The notes under the pieces are model-generated. The model had not been told where the DNA came from, ran no database searches, and worked only from the letters and a program-made list of their open reading frames with translations. Shown here in pieces: positions 9,815 to 44,701 of a stretch of DNA of 52,992 nt (position 1 is the first letter of the stretch; each line of letters opens with the position of its first letter). Both the position numbers and the translations under genes were made by a program. The stretch spans positions 1-52,992 of the forward strand of contig NZ_POTW01000041.1 in assembly GCF_003236295.1 (NCBI RefSeq). The letters run 5' to 3'. Source of the stretch: Jiangella anatolica. Lineage in GTDB: Bacteria > Actinomycetota > Actinomycetes > Jiangellales > Jiangellaceae.

Positions 9815-11485
9815 TCACACCGGCGGATCCTGGATGATCGCGGGAGCACTCGAGGAGAACGCGGCGGCGTGGTCGGCTCGGGTGCCGACGCTCGTCCGAG
9901 CCCGCAGCCACAGGCCCGACCAGCTGAGCTCGATGCCGTGGGTGGACCGGCGCACGCCGGCCGAGGACGGTGGCCGCCACCGTTCGTCGACGCGAGCGAG
10001 CTCGAACGTGCCTGCCACGAACGCCTGACCCACCGACGCGAGGTCGAGGTCCACCGGCCGGTCGGCGGCCAGCAGGACGATGTCGACGGCCACACGGTGG
10101 CCGTCGCGCCGGAGGCGTCCCCTTGGTTTCGTGTGGCCGAACGCGGCGTCCACCACGCCGATCGTGCACTCCACTCCCCCGGTGACCACGCTGACCGGCG
10201 CGTCGAGCCCGAACTCGTCGCCGTCGCCGGCCGTCCGCTCGCCCACCCGCACCACCGCGTCGGCGGCGCCGGCGAAGTCCAGCGAGACCACGAGCGACGT
10301 CGCCGCGACCGGCGCACCTCGGGCCAGCATGTCCAGATGCAGATGACGGTCGCCGCCGGGCGAGGCGAACCCGACGACCCACAGCGCGGCCTTGCCGTCC
10401 TGCACCGAGGAGAACGAACCCGAGGCGAAGTCGGCGCCATCCTTCAGCACCCTGAGCCGCACGCACCGCGCCGGCCGGCGCCAGGGCCGGTCGCCCGGCG
10501 CCACCCACTGGCCCAGCAGGTTGCGGCGCTGCAGCCAGGTGTCGGCCTGGTTGATCGTCCCCAGTGCCAGCACCGGGTCCAGCCACGTCGTTCCGACGAT
10601 CTCGCCCACGACAGCGGCGCCCCGCTGCTCGACGGCGGCGTGCGCGGTGTCGCCGCGGGCGAACAGCTCGCGACGCAGCGACCCGGCCGGGACGCTGGTG
10701 AAGCCGGCCACGTACCGGGCGGGCACGGACGGCTCGAGCACCGCCGGCCAGACCAGCTCGACGTCGGGGCGCGGCTCGAACGAGCCGAACGGCTCGGCGT
10801 CGTCCAGCGCGGTGCGCAGGAACGTCAGCAGCCACGGGTTGTCCGCGGTGTCGTCGCCGTAGGTGCGCGACATCGGCCCGGCCAGCTGGCCGGACGGCGC
10901 GTGCCAGCGGGCGGCCAGATGCCGCCAGGCGATGTCGCACAGCCGTTCGGCGGTCGCGCGGACCTCGTCGTCGTCGATGTACTGGCCGATCGCGGTGATG
11001 GCCTGCGTGGTGATGGTCCAGTAGGTCGGGCTGTTGTACTCCACGAGGCTGCCCGTGGCCTCGAGATTCGCGGCGAAGCGCCGCAGCCGGTCCCGCGCGT
11101 ACCCGGCGAGGTCCGCGTCACCCAGGAGCCGGCCGGCGGCCAGCGTCACGAACGTGCCCTTGGCCGCGATGTTGGTGTAGTCCATCGAGACGTCGCGCCG
11201 GGCGACCGACCGCGCCGCATGCCGCAGGGCGGCGCCCATGGCCTCGGCGACGGCCGGGTCCAGTGCGCTCCGGTGTCGCAGCAGGACCATGGCGAGCGTC
11301 CGGCCGTTGAAGTCGGCCTGGTTCCGGTCCGGCGGCCGCATGTCGGCGAGTGGCTCCTCGGCGTAGTAGCTCCACAGCCCGTACGTGTCCGAGCGCGGAT
11401 CGGTGTCCTGGTCCGCGACGCACCGCAGCAGGACCCTGCCGTGCGCCCGCCCGTGCCGTGCGCCCCGCGCCGTGCGCCCGCCCAT
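9815..11485 (-). CDS. Uncharacterised protein, predicted helical barrel plus β-rich C-terminus
   Basis: 556 aa if started at ATG 11485; the true start is uncertain because the 5' end lies inside a GC-rich 31-bp repeat array. Residues from about 35 onwards look like a helical-repeat (α/α) fold: QADFNGRTLAMVLLRHRSAL, DYTNIAAKGTFVTLAAGRLL, EYNSPTYWTITTQAI. The second half is β-rich with many WxxR/VxLRV strands, as in polysaccharide-lyase-like proteins. No signal peptide is seen. I recognise the pattern only as an actinobacterial hypothetical; a carbohydrate-active role is a weak guess. The first 16 residues (RTARGARHGRAHG-like) are probably repeat-derived rather than family sequence. Downstream of DUF4192 on the same strand. 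Confidence 0.7.
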   Translation of the reverse strand: MGGRTARGARHGRAHGRVLLRCVADQDTDPRSDTYGLWSYYAEEPLADMRPPDRNQADFNGRTLAMVLLRHRSALDPAVAEAMGAALRHAARSVARRDVSMDYTNIAAKGTFVTLAAGRLLGDADLAGYARDRLRRFAANLEATGSLVEYNSPTYWTITTQAITAIGQYIDDDEVRATAERLCDIAWRHLAARWHAPSGQLAGPMSRTYGDDTADNPWLLTFLRTALDDAEPFGSFEPRPDVELVWPAVLEPSVPARYVAGFTSVPAGSLRRELFARGDTAHAAVEQRGAAVVGEIVGTTWLDPVLALGTINQADTWLQRRNLLGQWVAPGDRPWRRPARCVRLRVLKDGADFASGSFSSVQDGKAALWVVGFASPGGDRHLHLDMLARGAPVAATSLVVSLDFAGAADAVVRVGERTAGDGDEFGLDAPVSVVTGGVECTIGVVDAAFGHTKPRGRLRRDGHRVAVDIVLLAADRPVDLDLASVGQAFVAGTFELARVDERWRPPSSAGVRRSTHGIELSWSGLWLRARTSVGTRADHAAAFSSSAPAIIQDPPV

Positions 11486-11601
11486 GCCGTGCGCCCGCCC
11501 GTCTGACCCGCGCCGTGCGCCCGCCCATGCCGTGCGCCTCGCGCCGTGGTTCCGCCCATGCCGTGCGCCCCGCGCCGCGGTTCCGCCCGTGCGCCCCGCG
11601 T
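11438..11601. repeat. 31-bp composite tandem repeat array
   Basis: A 17-nt element (GCCGTGCGCCCGCCCAT or -GT) alternates with a 14-nt element (GCCGTGCGCCCCGC). Together they make a 31-bp period: 17-nt elements start at 11438, 11469, 11512, 11543 and 11574, so one step is 43 instead of 31. It spans the start of the 556-aa gene and fills the gap to the DUF4192 stop at 11608. It is not protein-like in any frame. Confidence 0.85.
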
Positions 11602-30350: not shown

Positions 30351-30492
30351 CGCCGGTCGTGCCGTCGCGCGCCGCCGGACTCGCGTCGCCGCACTCGCAT
30401 CGCCGCCGGACTCGCGTCGCCGCACTCGCATCGCCGCCGGACTCGCGTCGCCGCACTCGCATCGCCGCCGGTCGTGCCGTCGCGCGCCGCCG
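30351..30492. repeat. 31-bp tandem repeat (3 copies) flanked by 27-bp direct repeats
   Basis: Unit GCCGCCGGACTCGCGTCGCC + 11 nt (GCACTCGCATC) is repeated exactly at 30371-30401, 30402-30432 and 30433-30463, then a partial copy. Direct repeats 30351-30377 and 30466-30492 (starting CGCCGGTCGTGCCGTC) border it. It lies after the aldo/keto reductase; no convincing ORF. Confidence 0.9.
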
Positions 30493-30546: not shown

Positions 30547-30569
30547 CACCGACAACGTCGGCGCGACCT

Positions 30570-30786
30570 GGCCCGGGGCCCGCTCGGCGCGACCCGACCC
30601 GGCCCGGGGCCCGCTCGACGCGACCCGACCCGGCCCGGGGCCCGCTCGGCGCGACCCGACCCGGCGCAGGACCCGCTCGACGCGACCCGACCCGGCGCAG
30701 GACCCGCTCGACGCGACCCGACCCGGCGCAGGACCCGCTCGACGCGACCCGACCCGGCGCGCGACCCGCTCGGCGCGACCCGACCC
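30570..30786. repeat. 31-bp tandem repeat, seven exact-length copies
   Basis: Units start at 30570, 30601, 30632, 30663, 30694, 30725 and 30756. They share CCCGCTCG(G/A)CGCGACCCGACCC. The first three begin GGCCCGGGG, the next three GGCGCAGGA and the last GGCGCGCGA. Total 217 bp, no gaps. The unit is not a multiple of three, so frames rotate and no protein is encoded. Confidence 0.92.
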
Positions 30787-30854
30787 GGGGAGCCAGCCGT
30801 GGCCGGTCCGGCCGCCCGCTCCCGACAAGGCACTGGCCGGCCGCCAGGCGCCGG

Positions 30855-41091: not shown

Positions 41092-41982
41092 GTGCTGGTC
41101 GCGGTCTCCGGCTCCAGCGGGTTCGTCGGCACAGCGCTGGTCGCCGGGCTGACGGCCGCCGGCCACGACGTCGTGCGGCTGGTCCGGCACCGGCCGGCCG
41201 CCGCGAACGAGGCGCAGTGGGACCCCGAGCAGGGCGTGGTCCCGCTCGCCCGCCTCGCCGGCGTCGAGGCCGTCGTGCACCTGGGCGGCGTCAGCGTCGG
41301 CGCGCACCGCTGGACCCGCAAGTTCAAGCGGCAGCTGCACCAGAGCCGGATCCGCTCGACGACGGTGCTCGCGTCCGCACTGACCGGGCTAGCCGCCCGG
41401 CCGCGCGTGTTCGTCTGCGCGTCGGCGATGGGCTACTACGGCCCCGACCGCGGCCGCGAGCTGCTGGACGAGGAGTCCGGCCCCGGCGACGGCTTCCTCG
41501 CCGGGCTGTGCCAGGACTGGGAACAGGCCGCCGCCCCCGCGAAGGCCGCCGACATCGCCGTCTGCCACACCCGCTTCGGCTTCGTGATCGGGCCGGACGG
41601 CGGCGCGCTGAAGCCGCTGCTGCCGCTGTTCCGGCTGGGGCTCGGCGGGCACTTCGGCAACGGTGAGCAGTTCTGGAGCGTCATCTCGCTGCACGACACG
41701 GTCCGGGCGCTGCGGTTCCTCATCGAGCAGCACGGCAGCGTCGGCCCCTACAACGTCACCTCGCCCGAACCGGTCTCCAACGGCGAGTTCAGCCGGGTGC
41801 TGGCCGCGGAGCTGCACCGGCCGCGGCTGCTGCCGGTGCCGGGGTTCGCGCTCCAGCTCGCCGTCGGGCAGGCGTCGGAGGAGCTGCTCGGCAGCCTGCG
41901 GATCGTGCCCGCCCGGCTGGCCGAGGCCGGCTTCGAGTTCGACCACCCGGACGCGCGGGCGATCATCCGGGCCGCTCTTTAG
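41092..41982 (+). CDS. TIGR01777-family SDR epimerase
   Basis: 296 aa from GTG 41092, four bp after the sucB stop, so it is probably co-transcribed. Rossmann start VAVSGSSGFVGTALVAGLTAAGH; family segments VVHLGGVSVGAHRWTRKFK, MGYYGPDRGRELLDEESG and WSVISLHDTVRALRFLIEQ. The C-terminal DUF1731-like part ends LLGSLRIVPARLAEAGFEFDHP. The same gene sits next to lipoate genes in many actinobacteria; the substrate is unknown. Its stop overlaps the stop of the convergent pseudokinase gene by the four bases TTAG. Confidence 0.92.
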   Translation: MLVAVSGSSGFVGTALVAGLTAAGHDVVRLVRHRPAAANEAQWDPEQGVVPLARLAGVEAVVHLGGVSVGAHRWTRKFKRQLHQSRIRSTTVLASALTGLAARPRVFVCASAMGYYGPDRGRELLDEESGPGDGFLAGLCQDWEQAAAPAKAADIAVCHTRFGFVIGPDGGALKPLLPLFRLGLGGHFGNGEQFWSVISLHDTVRALRFLIEQHGSVGPYNVTSPEPVSNGEFSRVLAAELHRPRLLPVPGFALQLAVGQASEELLGSLRIVPARLAEAGFEFDHPDARAIIRAAL

Positions 41983-43811
41983 CCGAACCGCCAGGAGCTG
42001 GTGCCGTCGGGGTTGGCGACGGCGACGAGGTCGGCCTGCCAGGTCTGCTCCTCGGTGCCCTCGATCTCCTGCTCGACCTCGCCGTCGTCGTTGACGAGCG
42101 TGTAGTCGGGGATCCGCTGGGTGATCGACACCGTCGCCCGGCCGCCCTCCTGAGACACCAGCTCGGCGTTGACCACCTCGAACGACAGGCCCTCGGTGTG
42201 CACACCGGCGTCGGCGTACTCCTGGAGCAGCTCGGCGTCGTCGTCGAGGATGGCGTTGGTCGGCGCGTGCACCTGGCACAGCAGCTCGGCGTCGCCCTCC
42301 TCGAACGCCTGGGCGCGCAGCGTGTAGAGCCGCTGCACCTCCTGGGTCCAGTCGGTGACGGTGGGCGGCGGCGCGGTGGGCGCCGGCTGCGGCCCGCCGC
42401 ACAGGTCGGGCGCGGACTCGGAGTCGCCGGGGCTGGCGCCGCTGCCGGGTCCCGCCGTCGGGGTGTCGTCGCCGAAGATCCGCCAGCCGACGATCGCCAC
42501 GCCCGCGACCACCAGCAAGGCCACCAGCGCGCTGACGATCCACATGCGGTCCTTGCGACGGGCGCCGCCGGGCTCGTCGTCGCCGGGCGGCGCGCCGCGG
42601 CCACGGCGCGACTCCTTGGCCGACGGCGTGCGCGGCGCGGCGGCGAGCACCTCACCCGGCGTGCGGCGCGACCGGCGCTCGTCGGGCAGCACCCCGTCGG
42701 GCACCGGCACGTTCACGCCGTCGTCGAGCCCGCGGCCGGGCGGCGGCTCGGCGGGCGACTCCTCGCCGCGGCCACGACGGCCCCGCCGCGGGGTGCGGAT
42801 CGGGCCGGTCGGTGCCGTCGGGCTCACGCCGGCCCCGCCGGGAACGGTGGCGCCGCCGGCCGCGGGCGCGGCCAGGCCGCCCACGGCGCCGGCCGCGGGT
42901 GCCGGCGGCGCGGTCTCGCGCGCGTCGCCTGCCTCGGCGCGACGGCGGGCCCGGCGGCCGGTGGACGTCGAGCGGCGCATGAACGCGGCCACGTCGTCCT
43001 CGGCGCCCATGACGGGTGCGTCGACGATCGGGCGCATCGTCCCGGTGGTCGCGTGGTTCTCCTCGAGGACCAGCTCGACGGGCGCCGGGTCGGCCACCGC
43101 GAAGAACACGTTGCCGATGCTGCTGACCGGCGGACGCCGGTTCGGCACCGGGTCCAGCGCGCTGGCCAGCAACGCCTGCGTGGCCGGCGGGACGGCGGGC
43201 AGCGCCAGCCGGGCCGACGGCAGGTACCCCGTCAGCGCCACGACGGCGGCCGTGACCAGCCCGTACACGTCGGCCGGCGGGCCGGGCGGCGATCCGGCCT
43301 GGACCTCCGGCGGCACCGGGCGGGCGCGCTGGCCGACCCGCAGCGGGACGCCGGCCTGGATCAGCCCGGCGCCGGCCACCATGGGCCGGCCGTCGAGGCT
43401 GAAGACGATGTCGTCGAGCGTGAGGTCGCCGTGCACGATGCCGCGGCGGTGCAGCTCGGTGAGCCCCTCCGCGACCGGCGCGCACGCGGTGACGACCTCG
43501 CCGGCCGGCAGCACGCCGCGGGCGCCGATGATCCCGGCCAGGCTGCCGCCCTCGGCCGCGCCCAGCACCACGACCGGCCCGCCCGGCCCATCGACGACGT
43601 CGTAGAACTCGATGACGTGCGGGTGGTCGATGCCGCGCAGCGCCTGCGCCGCCATGCGCAGCCGGTCGCGCACCTGCGGGCCGATCTGGCCGAGAAACCG
43701 CAGGGTGACTGACGCACCGGTCGCGTCCTCTCGCGCGAGGTACATGGCCGACGCGTCGGAGCCGAGCCGTCGGGTGATGGTGTAACCCGCGGGAGTCTCG
43801 AGACCCTGCAT
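41979..43811 (-). CDS. Membrane-anchored pseudokinase
   Basis: 610 aa from ATG 43811. Residues 10-270 have a Ser/Thr kinase-like fold (YTITRRLGSDASAMYLARE, GIDHPHVIEFYDVV, ADVYGLVTAAVVAL). Catalytic residues are missing: R38 replaces the β3 Lys (VTLRFL), HGD replaces HRD, the catalytic-loop Asn is D134, and DFG is absent (VAGAGL). It is predicted to be inactive and to act as a scaffold or regulator. Residues 290-420 are a disordered Pro/Gly/Arg linker. A single membrane helix spans about 423-445, and residues 446-610 form an extracellular domain of NTF2-like appearance. The frame stays open upstream into a 90-bp repeat, giving a possible Cys-rich extension which I do not favour. Confidence 0.85.
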   Translation of the reverse strand: MQGLETPAGYTITRRLGSDASAMYLAREDATGASVTLRFLGQIGPQVRDRLRMAAQALRGIDHPHVIEFYDVVDGPGGPVVVLGAAEGGSLAGIIGARGVLPAGEVVTACAPVAEGLTELHRRGIVHGDLTLDDIVFSLDGRPMVAGAGLIQAGVPLRVGQRARPVPPEVQAGSPPGPPADVYGLVTAAVVALTGYLPSARLALPAVPPATQALLASALDPVPNRRPPVSSIGNVFFAVADPAPVELVLEENHATTGTMRPIVDAPVMGAEDDVAAFMRRSTSTGRRARRRAEAGDARETAPPAPAAGAVGGLAAPAAGGATVPGGAGVSPTAPTGPIRTPRRGRRGRGEESPAEPPPGRGLDDGVNVPVPDGVLPDERRSRRTPGEVLAAAPRTPSAKESRRGRGAPPGDDEPGGARRKDRMWIVSALVALLVVAGVAIVGWRIFGDDTPTAGPGSGASPGDSESAPDLCGGPQPAPTAPPPTVTDWTQEVQRLYTLRAQAFEEGDAELLCQVHAPTNAILDDDAELLQEYADAGVHTEGLSFEVVNAELVSQEGGRATVSITQRIPDYTLVNDDGEVEQEIEGTEEQTWQADLVAVANPDGTSSWRFG

Positions 43812-43823
43812 CCGCTTATCGTT

Positions 43824-44169
43824 GCAAACCTTCCTCCCAGATGCCGCATCGGCCGTGTCACAACTCGCGTCGCACCTCAGGCCGTGGCCCCGGATCCGCG
43901 CCATTACACCCAGGCAAACCTTCCTCCCAGATGCCGCATCGGCCGTGTCACAACTCGCGTCGCACCTCAGGCCGTGGCCCCGGATCCGCGCCATTACACC
44001 CAGGCAAACCCTCCTCCCAGATGCCGCATCGGCCGTGTCACAACCTTGCGTCACACCTCAGGCCGCGGCCCCGGATCCGCGCCATTACACCCAGGCAAAC
44101 CTTCCTCCCAGATGCCGCATCGGCCGTGTCACAACCTTGCGTCACACCTCCGGTCGGCCGTGTCACAAG
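43824..44169. repeat. 90-bp tandem repeat array
   Basis: Copies start at 43824, 43914, 44004 and 44095, each beginning GCAAACC(T/C)TCCTCCCAG. The third is 91 bp, and the fourth is truncated and passes into a further TCGGCCGTGTCACAA at 44154. Each unit has the palindrome GATGCCGCATC (first copy 43840-43850) next to GGCCGTGTCACAA. It fills the 377-bp divergent gap between the pseudokinase and DedA genes. Confidence 0.92.
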
Positions 44170-44175
44170 GCTGGT

Positions 44176-44181
44176 TACGAT
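44176..44181 (+). promoter_or_regulatory. Predicted -10 box of the DedA-like gene (leaderless)
   Basis: TACGAT is seven nucleotides before ATG 44189. It lies 7 bp past the last repeat-derived sequence. Confidence 0.5.
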
Positions 44182-44188
44182 CAGGGAC

Positions 44189-44701
44189 ATGGACGGGGTC
44201 ACGCCGCTCGCAGCCCCCGACAGCCCGTTCGGCCTGCCGCTCTGGCTGGGCATCGCCGTCATGTTCGGCATCGTCGTCGCCCGAGCTCAGGCGACGTACT
44301 GGCTGGGCCGGGCCGCGGGGACGAGCATCGCGCGGTCGCGCTGGGGCGACCGGATCGGCCGCGAGCGGCTGGACCGCGCCGAGCGCTTCGTCGCCCACTA
44401 CGGCCCGGCCGCCGTCACGCTCTCCTTCCTCACCATCGGCGTGCAGACCGCCGTCAACGCCGTCGCCGGCGCCACCCGCATGCCGTTCGGCCGCTACCTG
44501 GCCGCGATGCTCGTCGGATCGGCGCTCTGGGCGGTCATCTGGACCGTCGGCGGGCTGGGCGTGCTGTGGGGCGCTGTGACGGTGGCCTCGGCGGCCCCGC
44601 TGGCGGCCGCGGCGGTGGTGGTCATGGCCGTCGCCGCCGGCGTGGCGGTCGTCGGCTACCGTCGGCGTCGCGCCGCGTTCCACGACCAGGAGGCCCGATG
44701 A
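44189..44701 (+). CDS. DedA/VTT-domain membrane protein
   Basis: 170 aa from ATG 44189. A short VTT-type protein: the first helix LPLWLGIAVMFGIVVARAQ, the conserved ATYWLGRAAG segment, AERFVAHYGPAAVTLSFLTIGVQTAVNAVAGATRMPFGRYL (the re-entrant-loop signature, G and R residues retained), and two C-terminal helices. These proteins are proposed to flip phospholipids or undecaprenyl phosphate. It overlaps the peptidase E gene by ATGA and is therefore co-translated. Confidence 0.85.
   Translation: MDGVTPLAAPDSPFGLPLWLGIAVMFGIVVARAQATYWLGRAAGTSIARSRWGDRIGRERLDRAERFVAHYGPAAVTLSFLTIGVQTAVNAVAGATRMPFGRYLAAMLVGSALWAVIWTVGGLGVLWGAVTVASAAPLAAAAVVVMAVAAGVAVVGYRRRRAAFHDQEAR

Follow-up and report, generated by a model that had tools for sequence, protein, structure and literature searches.

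The locus considered here raises the question of why the region between two divergently read genes of Jiangella anatolica is filled with nearly four copies of a 90-bp sequence, and whether these copies act on the genes at either side. In the window, i.e., the whole 52,992-nucleotide stretch of contig NZ_POTW01000041.1 that was analyzed, Tandem Repeats Finder places a tandem array at positions 43824-44150 (period 90, 3.6 copies, 97% matches), in agreement with the approximately four-copy, 90-bp array between divergent genes that an earlier note had described. Its score of 598 is the highest of the 26 rows obtained for the window, the lag-90 match across the intergenic region is 0.613, compared with 0.391 for the best of 1000 base shuffles at lags 80-100, and the copies are arranged head to tail with high identity, as in a minisatellite or VNTR. 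They start at 43824, 43914, 44004 and 44095 (the last copy being partial), which gives spacings of 90, 90 and 91 bp. The array and its flanks comprise the following features:

41979-43811, minus strand: kinase-like gene (probable pseudokinase), 610 aa, ATG at 43809-43811; Pfam Pkinase, 4.9e-11
43818-43823, minus strand: AACGAT, putative -10 hexamer for the pseudokinase gene, separated by 6 nt from the ATG, single copy, abutting the array
43824-43913, minus strand: repeat unit 1, 90 bp, promoter-proximal, identical to unit 2
43824-43861, minus strand: 38-bp core GTGACACGGCCGATGCGGCATCTGGGAGGAAGGTTTGC (kinase strand), partly conserved upstream of orthologs
43914-44003, minus strand: repeat unit 2, 90 bp
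44004-44094, minus strand: repeat unit 3, 91 bp, with one extra base
44095-44150, minus strand: repeat unit 4, partial, 56 bp, with a complete core
43914-43951, 44004-44041 (one base different) and 44095-44132, minus strand: further 38-bp cores

44156-44168, minus strand: head of a fifth core, DedA-proximal, TTGTGACACGGCC (GGCCGTGTCACAA on the other strand)
44176-44181, plus strand: TACGAT, putative -10 hexamer for the DedA gene, separated by 7 nt from the ATG
44189-44701, plus strand: DedA/VTT-domain gene, 170 aa, ATG at 44189; Pfam VTT_dom, 9.3e-17

The recurrence of GGCCGTGTCACAA at the edge of the DedA promoter, pointed out in the earlier note, is real: its reverse complement TTGTGACACGGCC has five exact matches in the genome, four in the array and the fifth at 44156-44168. 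The palindrome GATGCCGCATC is found four times in the array and four times elsewhere in the genome (two matches for the reversed control); one of the four off-locus sites is flagged as coding, and the other three are unflagged but lie in long open frames. The supposition that the unit length is a multiple of three fails, since the third copy measures 91 bp and homologous units in relatives measure 89 bp (G010) and 97 and 143 bp (J. endophytica, G007). The 143-bp unit carries two extra nested 23-bp copies (GGTGGCGCCGATCCTGTGAGAGG) that account for its length in place of 97 bp. The units in the window (43824-44094) also carry GGAGGAAGG or GGAGGAGGG, which are Shine-Dalgarno-like on the kinase strand, and TGTAAT, a near-consensus -10; neither is present in the units of G010 and G007.

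For the minus-strand gene pseudokinase appears to be a fair label: by eye, HGD replaces the usual HRD, and the DFG motif and VAIK lysine are missing. The gene on the plus strand is followed downstream by a peptidase S51 gene. For comparison we used the orthologous intergenic regions of 14 genomes, 12 from the genus Jiangella, including that of J. anatolica itself (G000), and two from the family. The kinase ortholog is present in all 12 genus genomes and stands beside the DedA gene in all 14. Its alignment with 13 close orthologs begins at residue 1, and its ATG is kept in 14/14 genomes; that of the DedA gene is kept in 13/14, with AAT at this position in G016.

Intergenic lengths are 377 bp in G000, 554 bp in J. 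aurantiaca (G006), 130 bp in J. rhizosphaerae (G002), 107 bp in G004, 485 bp in G010, 72 bp in J. muralis (G009), 128 bp in G008, 438 bp in G007, 129 bp in G001, 127 bp in J. ureilytica (G011), 71 bp in G003, 106 bp in J. asiatica (G005) and, beyond the named Jiangella species, 68 bp in Haloactinopolyspora alba (G018) and 70 bp in a MAG (G016), the last value being approximate because AAT replaces the start codon. The region thus spans 377-485 bp in the three array genomes (G000, G007 and G010), 68-130 bp in 10 of the 11 others and 554 bp in G006, and the long array is absent from 11/14 genomes. The J. muralis region represents a one-core layout in the order DedA ATG, TACGAT, core, AACGAT, kinase ATG, and G004 has two cores 35 bp apart. 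The long region of J. aurantiaca contains one core and no array; its filler includes, by eye, a long inverted repeat TTGATCATGGAGAAGGTC ... GACCTTCTCCATGATCAA. In G010, five copies lie within one contig of 7,485,957 bases, and arrays at this locus are therefore not just an effect of draft assembly. With one genome per species, all copy-number variation described here is variation between species.

Both start codons are preceded by a -10-like hexamer. Six nucleotides before the pseudokinase ATG, 13/14 genomes have AACGAT and J. asiatica has CACCAT; 6-7 nt before the DedA ATG, 13/14 have TACGAT and G016 has TACGCT. A TANNNT motif roughly 12 bp ahead of the start codon has been described as a mark of bacterial leaderless genes that is frequent in Actinobacteria (PMC3160421), and Mycobacterium tuberculosis promoters have been described as having TANNNT without a -35 consensus (PMC3898074). 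From this literature and the closeness of the hexamers to the ATGs we infer that both genes may be leaderless, a reading that suits the DedA gene, where TACGAT fits TANNNT in 13/14 genomes, better than the pseudokinase gene, where AACGAT lacks the first T in 13/14. A consensus scan of 43760-44240 detected no sigma-70-type promoter, and a scan of the array region detected no terminator.

In an ungapped alignment of the stretch preceding the kinase ATG, anchored at that ATG, CGGCCGATG and GGTTTG, both part of the repeated unit, are invariant upstream of the kinase orthologs in 12/12 genus genomes. The heptamer GTGACAC is found in this kinase-proximal stretch in 10/12 genus genomes and in neither of the two family outgroups; being absent in 4/14, it is not required everywhere. 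The palindrome that the earlier note expected to be conserved upstream of orthologs is so only in part: its GATG is invariant in 12/12, but only 4/12 (G000, G008, G009 and G010) have intact 5-bp arms in the copy nearest the kinase gene.

In the three array genomes the unit consists of a 38-bp core ending in GGTTTGC and a spacer of approximately 50-60 bp. The end of the core is the point at which the promoter copy continues into AACGAT, and this hexamer is replaced in all nine complete internal copies, both hexamers being single; consequently, the array multiplies upstream sequence and not whole promoters. The proposal of a multiplied operator or promoter segment fits in that the repeated 38 bp abut the hexamer and contain the invariant motifs, but not in the sense of a multiplied complete promoter. 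In comparisons between array genomes, 21-22 of the first 22 core positions are identical, and the spacers are homologous, with 40/52, 42/61 and 43/61 aligned columns in agreement. By eye only, the tail of the unit resembles the sequence that immediately precedes the core in one-core species (GCAAGCTGTGACAC in J. rhizosphaerae and J. aurantiaca), and the unit therefore seems to be derived from the native region. Six local alignments gave no support to the idea that the spacer descends from an ancient copy of the core that has since diverged (p 0.09-0.64).

At this one locus, then, the sequence immediately preceding the pseudokinase -10-like hexamer has been amplified in tandem, to a copy number that differs between species. 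Exact 15-bp cores number five in G010, four in G000, three in G007, two in G004, one in each of six genomes and none in G003 and G005, where the core has diverged; all 20 in the 12 genomes sit at the array locus. The cores show concerted evolution within each of the three array genomes: of the six core sites that vary, five are uniform among the cores of any one genome but not from genome to genome, and this extends to the copy that abuts the hexamer. Core identity is 0.993 within and 0.896 between genomes, a contrast reached by 1 in 20000 label permutations, for four cores of G000, five of G010 and three of G007, with the DedA-side partial cores of G000 and G007 left out. Within-array variation is missing from the first 22 bp of the core, which is not significant (P = 0.06). 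In a gene tree of one locus, G010 (five cores) groups with G004 (two) and J. muralis (one) with support 95 (internal order 60), from which it follows that copy number turns over quickly; six nodes of this tree have support of 59-81, too little to fix the number of expansions and contractions. The homologous spacers of G000, G007 and G010 suggest an older array in their ancestor; exchange between species could also account for them.

Exact cores are confined to this locus. Used as a DNA query, the whole region matches one place in its own genome of 7,005,973 bases, and the G010 array, searched against 12 genomes, matches only the array locus among the matches listed, with at least 11 matches in 10 genomes and no more than 40 initial candidates scored in each genome. 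Copies at several loci, as with MIRUs, were thus not found in either the own-genome or the 12-genome search. The earlier note had proposed a genome search for its motifs; our 23-mer, 13-mer and 15-mer searches gave no support for an operator shared with other loci. Within J. anatolica, the 23-mer at up to three mismatches has all four of its sites in the array (reversed control 0), and the 13-mer at up to one mismatch has five exact sites, all at the locus, and two off-locus sites, both in frames flagged coding (reversed control 10). Across 12 genomes, the 15-mer has no exact off-locus match; at one mismatch it has 31 off-locus sites, compared with three for the reversed control, an excess that is only partly explained: of the 21 sites read, 16 lie in coding-flagged frames and five in unflagged long open frames, by a crude test. 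Sharing with other loci is not needed for a one-target regulator; a regulator, if there is one, would have a single target here or more degenerate sites elsewhere.

As the best available explanation, we lean somewhat toward the idea that this locus-specific, variable array multiplies an upstream promoter element or operator. The 38-bp core would contain this element, or else be bound by a regulator that controls the pseudokinase gene and perhaps also DedA. Unequal exchange or slippage would multiply this site, with the -10 elements staying single; more copies would add binding sites and move the genes farther apart, and this would loosen any coupling of the two promoters and tune expression. 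Operator binding, and any effect of the array on expression, are inferred. Several observations speak against this reading: no regulator or regulon was seen (the 15-mer, 0 exact off-locus matches in 12 genomes), a consensus sigma-70 promoter is missing and the pseudokinase hexamer is AACGAT rather than TANNNT, GTGACAC is absent from 4/14 genomes and a long array from 11/14, and the internal cores may be conserved in sequence only via homogenization with the promoter copy.

The last point leads to the strongest alternative, which fits the sequence data nearly as well, namely a neutral minisatellite that arises by slippage or unequal exchange in a tolerant region, in which the promoter-proximal copy is constrained, conversion spreads its core through the array, and copy number has no effect on expression. 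The range of zero to five exact cores among 12 genomes, with five, two and one in the clade of G010, G004 and G009, is as expected from such turnover, slippage seems to be still going on, to judge from the pair of nested 23-bp duplications within a G007 unit, and no regulon was found. Against it stand the placement of the array exactly against the hexamer, the single state of both hexamers and the multiplication of a conserved core, each of which is, however, compatible with neutrality too. We consider a neutral origin a serious possibility, short of probable.

Two further explanations are very improbable. The landing of a dispersed MIRU-, REP- or MITE-like repeat at the locus would accord with the unit size and intergenic place, which resemble those of the senX3-regX3 MIRU array (PMC4213456), but is rejected on the single-locus results: one locus in the own genome, with the G010 query, among the matches listed, and the 20 exact 15-mers likewise found only here. 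A structured RNA or DNA element (leader, attenuator or cruciform) could be read into the short palindrome GATGCCGCATC; however, a search of 43700-44300 against Rfam gave no hit with E up to 1 and one unit folds no better than its shuffles (z 1.07 and 0.67, DNA parameters), on which grounds an Rfam family and a DNA hairpin are rejected, and the array would be in neither mRNA if both genes are leaderless. Least credible is a coding repeat that extends the pseudokinase or DedA protein at the N-terminus: in J. anatolica, long frames run through the array on either strand, as the earlier note stated, and the DedA frame is stop-free across the intergenic region in 13/14 genomes (the kinase frame in 3/14), so that stops alone do not exclude a DedA extension, but units of 89, 91, 97 and 143 bp shift the frame and undo the hint drawn from divisibility by three, stops interrupt the kinase frame upstream of the ATG, at a distance of 15 nt in G003, G005, G016 and G018 and of 60-249 nt in seven other genomes, and the ATGs are kept in 14/14 (kinase) and 13/14 (DedA), and this reading is rejected on the unit lengths and kinase-frame stops.

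MIRUs are dispersed at many loci, and senX3 and regX3 lie in one operon. The present array, in contrast, occupies one locus between divergent genes, and its unit abuts a promoter hexamer. Promoter VNTRs and minisatellites are tandem copies of regulatory segments whose number varies between relatives, and the array shares these properties; it differs in that the variation seen is between species only and in that an effect on expression is here a prediction. A literature search found nothing that links Jiangella with a tandem repeat, or Streptomyces with intergenic repeat copy number. With the senX3-regX3 MIRU array of M. tuberculosis the present array has in common tandem units in an actinobacterial intergenic region; the units there are of 77 or 53 bp, differ between H37Rv and CDC1551, and are reported to drive senX3-independent regX3 expression (PMC4213456). 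The units also resemble MtrA-type direct-repeat operators in having paired GTGAC-like half sites. These start 12-13 bp apart by eye, however, compared with 11 bp in the MtrA consensus (PMC5650626), which is why an MtrA operator is rejected; in addition, no such pair was seen ahead of the one core of J. muralis.

Returning to the promoter or operator reading, a bolder version appears doubtful to us, namely that the upstream element of the promoter forms the edge of a self-homogenizing satellite, so that changes in the array can reach the working promoter copy, and that the strength of two divergent leaderless promoters, and how far they are coupled, depend on the length of the array. If copies change expression, the locus would provide a natural operator dosage series, with 0-5 exact cores in 12 species at one locus, and a clear bacterial case of a promoter that evolves in concert with a repeat array; if they have no effect, arrays can grow up to a -10 element without consequence. 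The locus is a neat, though probably modest, example of repeats expanding within regulatory DNA.

The window holds a second repeat place with a different unit, consisting of 31-bp tandem arrays at 30564-30788 (7.3 copies, 94%) and 30356-30471 (3.8 copies, 93%), both in GC-rich DNA that looks intergenic by eye. Imperfect GC-rich repeats of approximately 31 and 74 bp, with GCCGTGCGCCC words, occur at 11431-11600.
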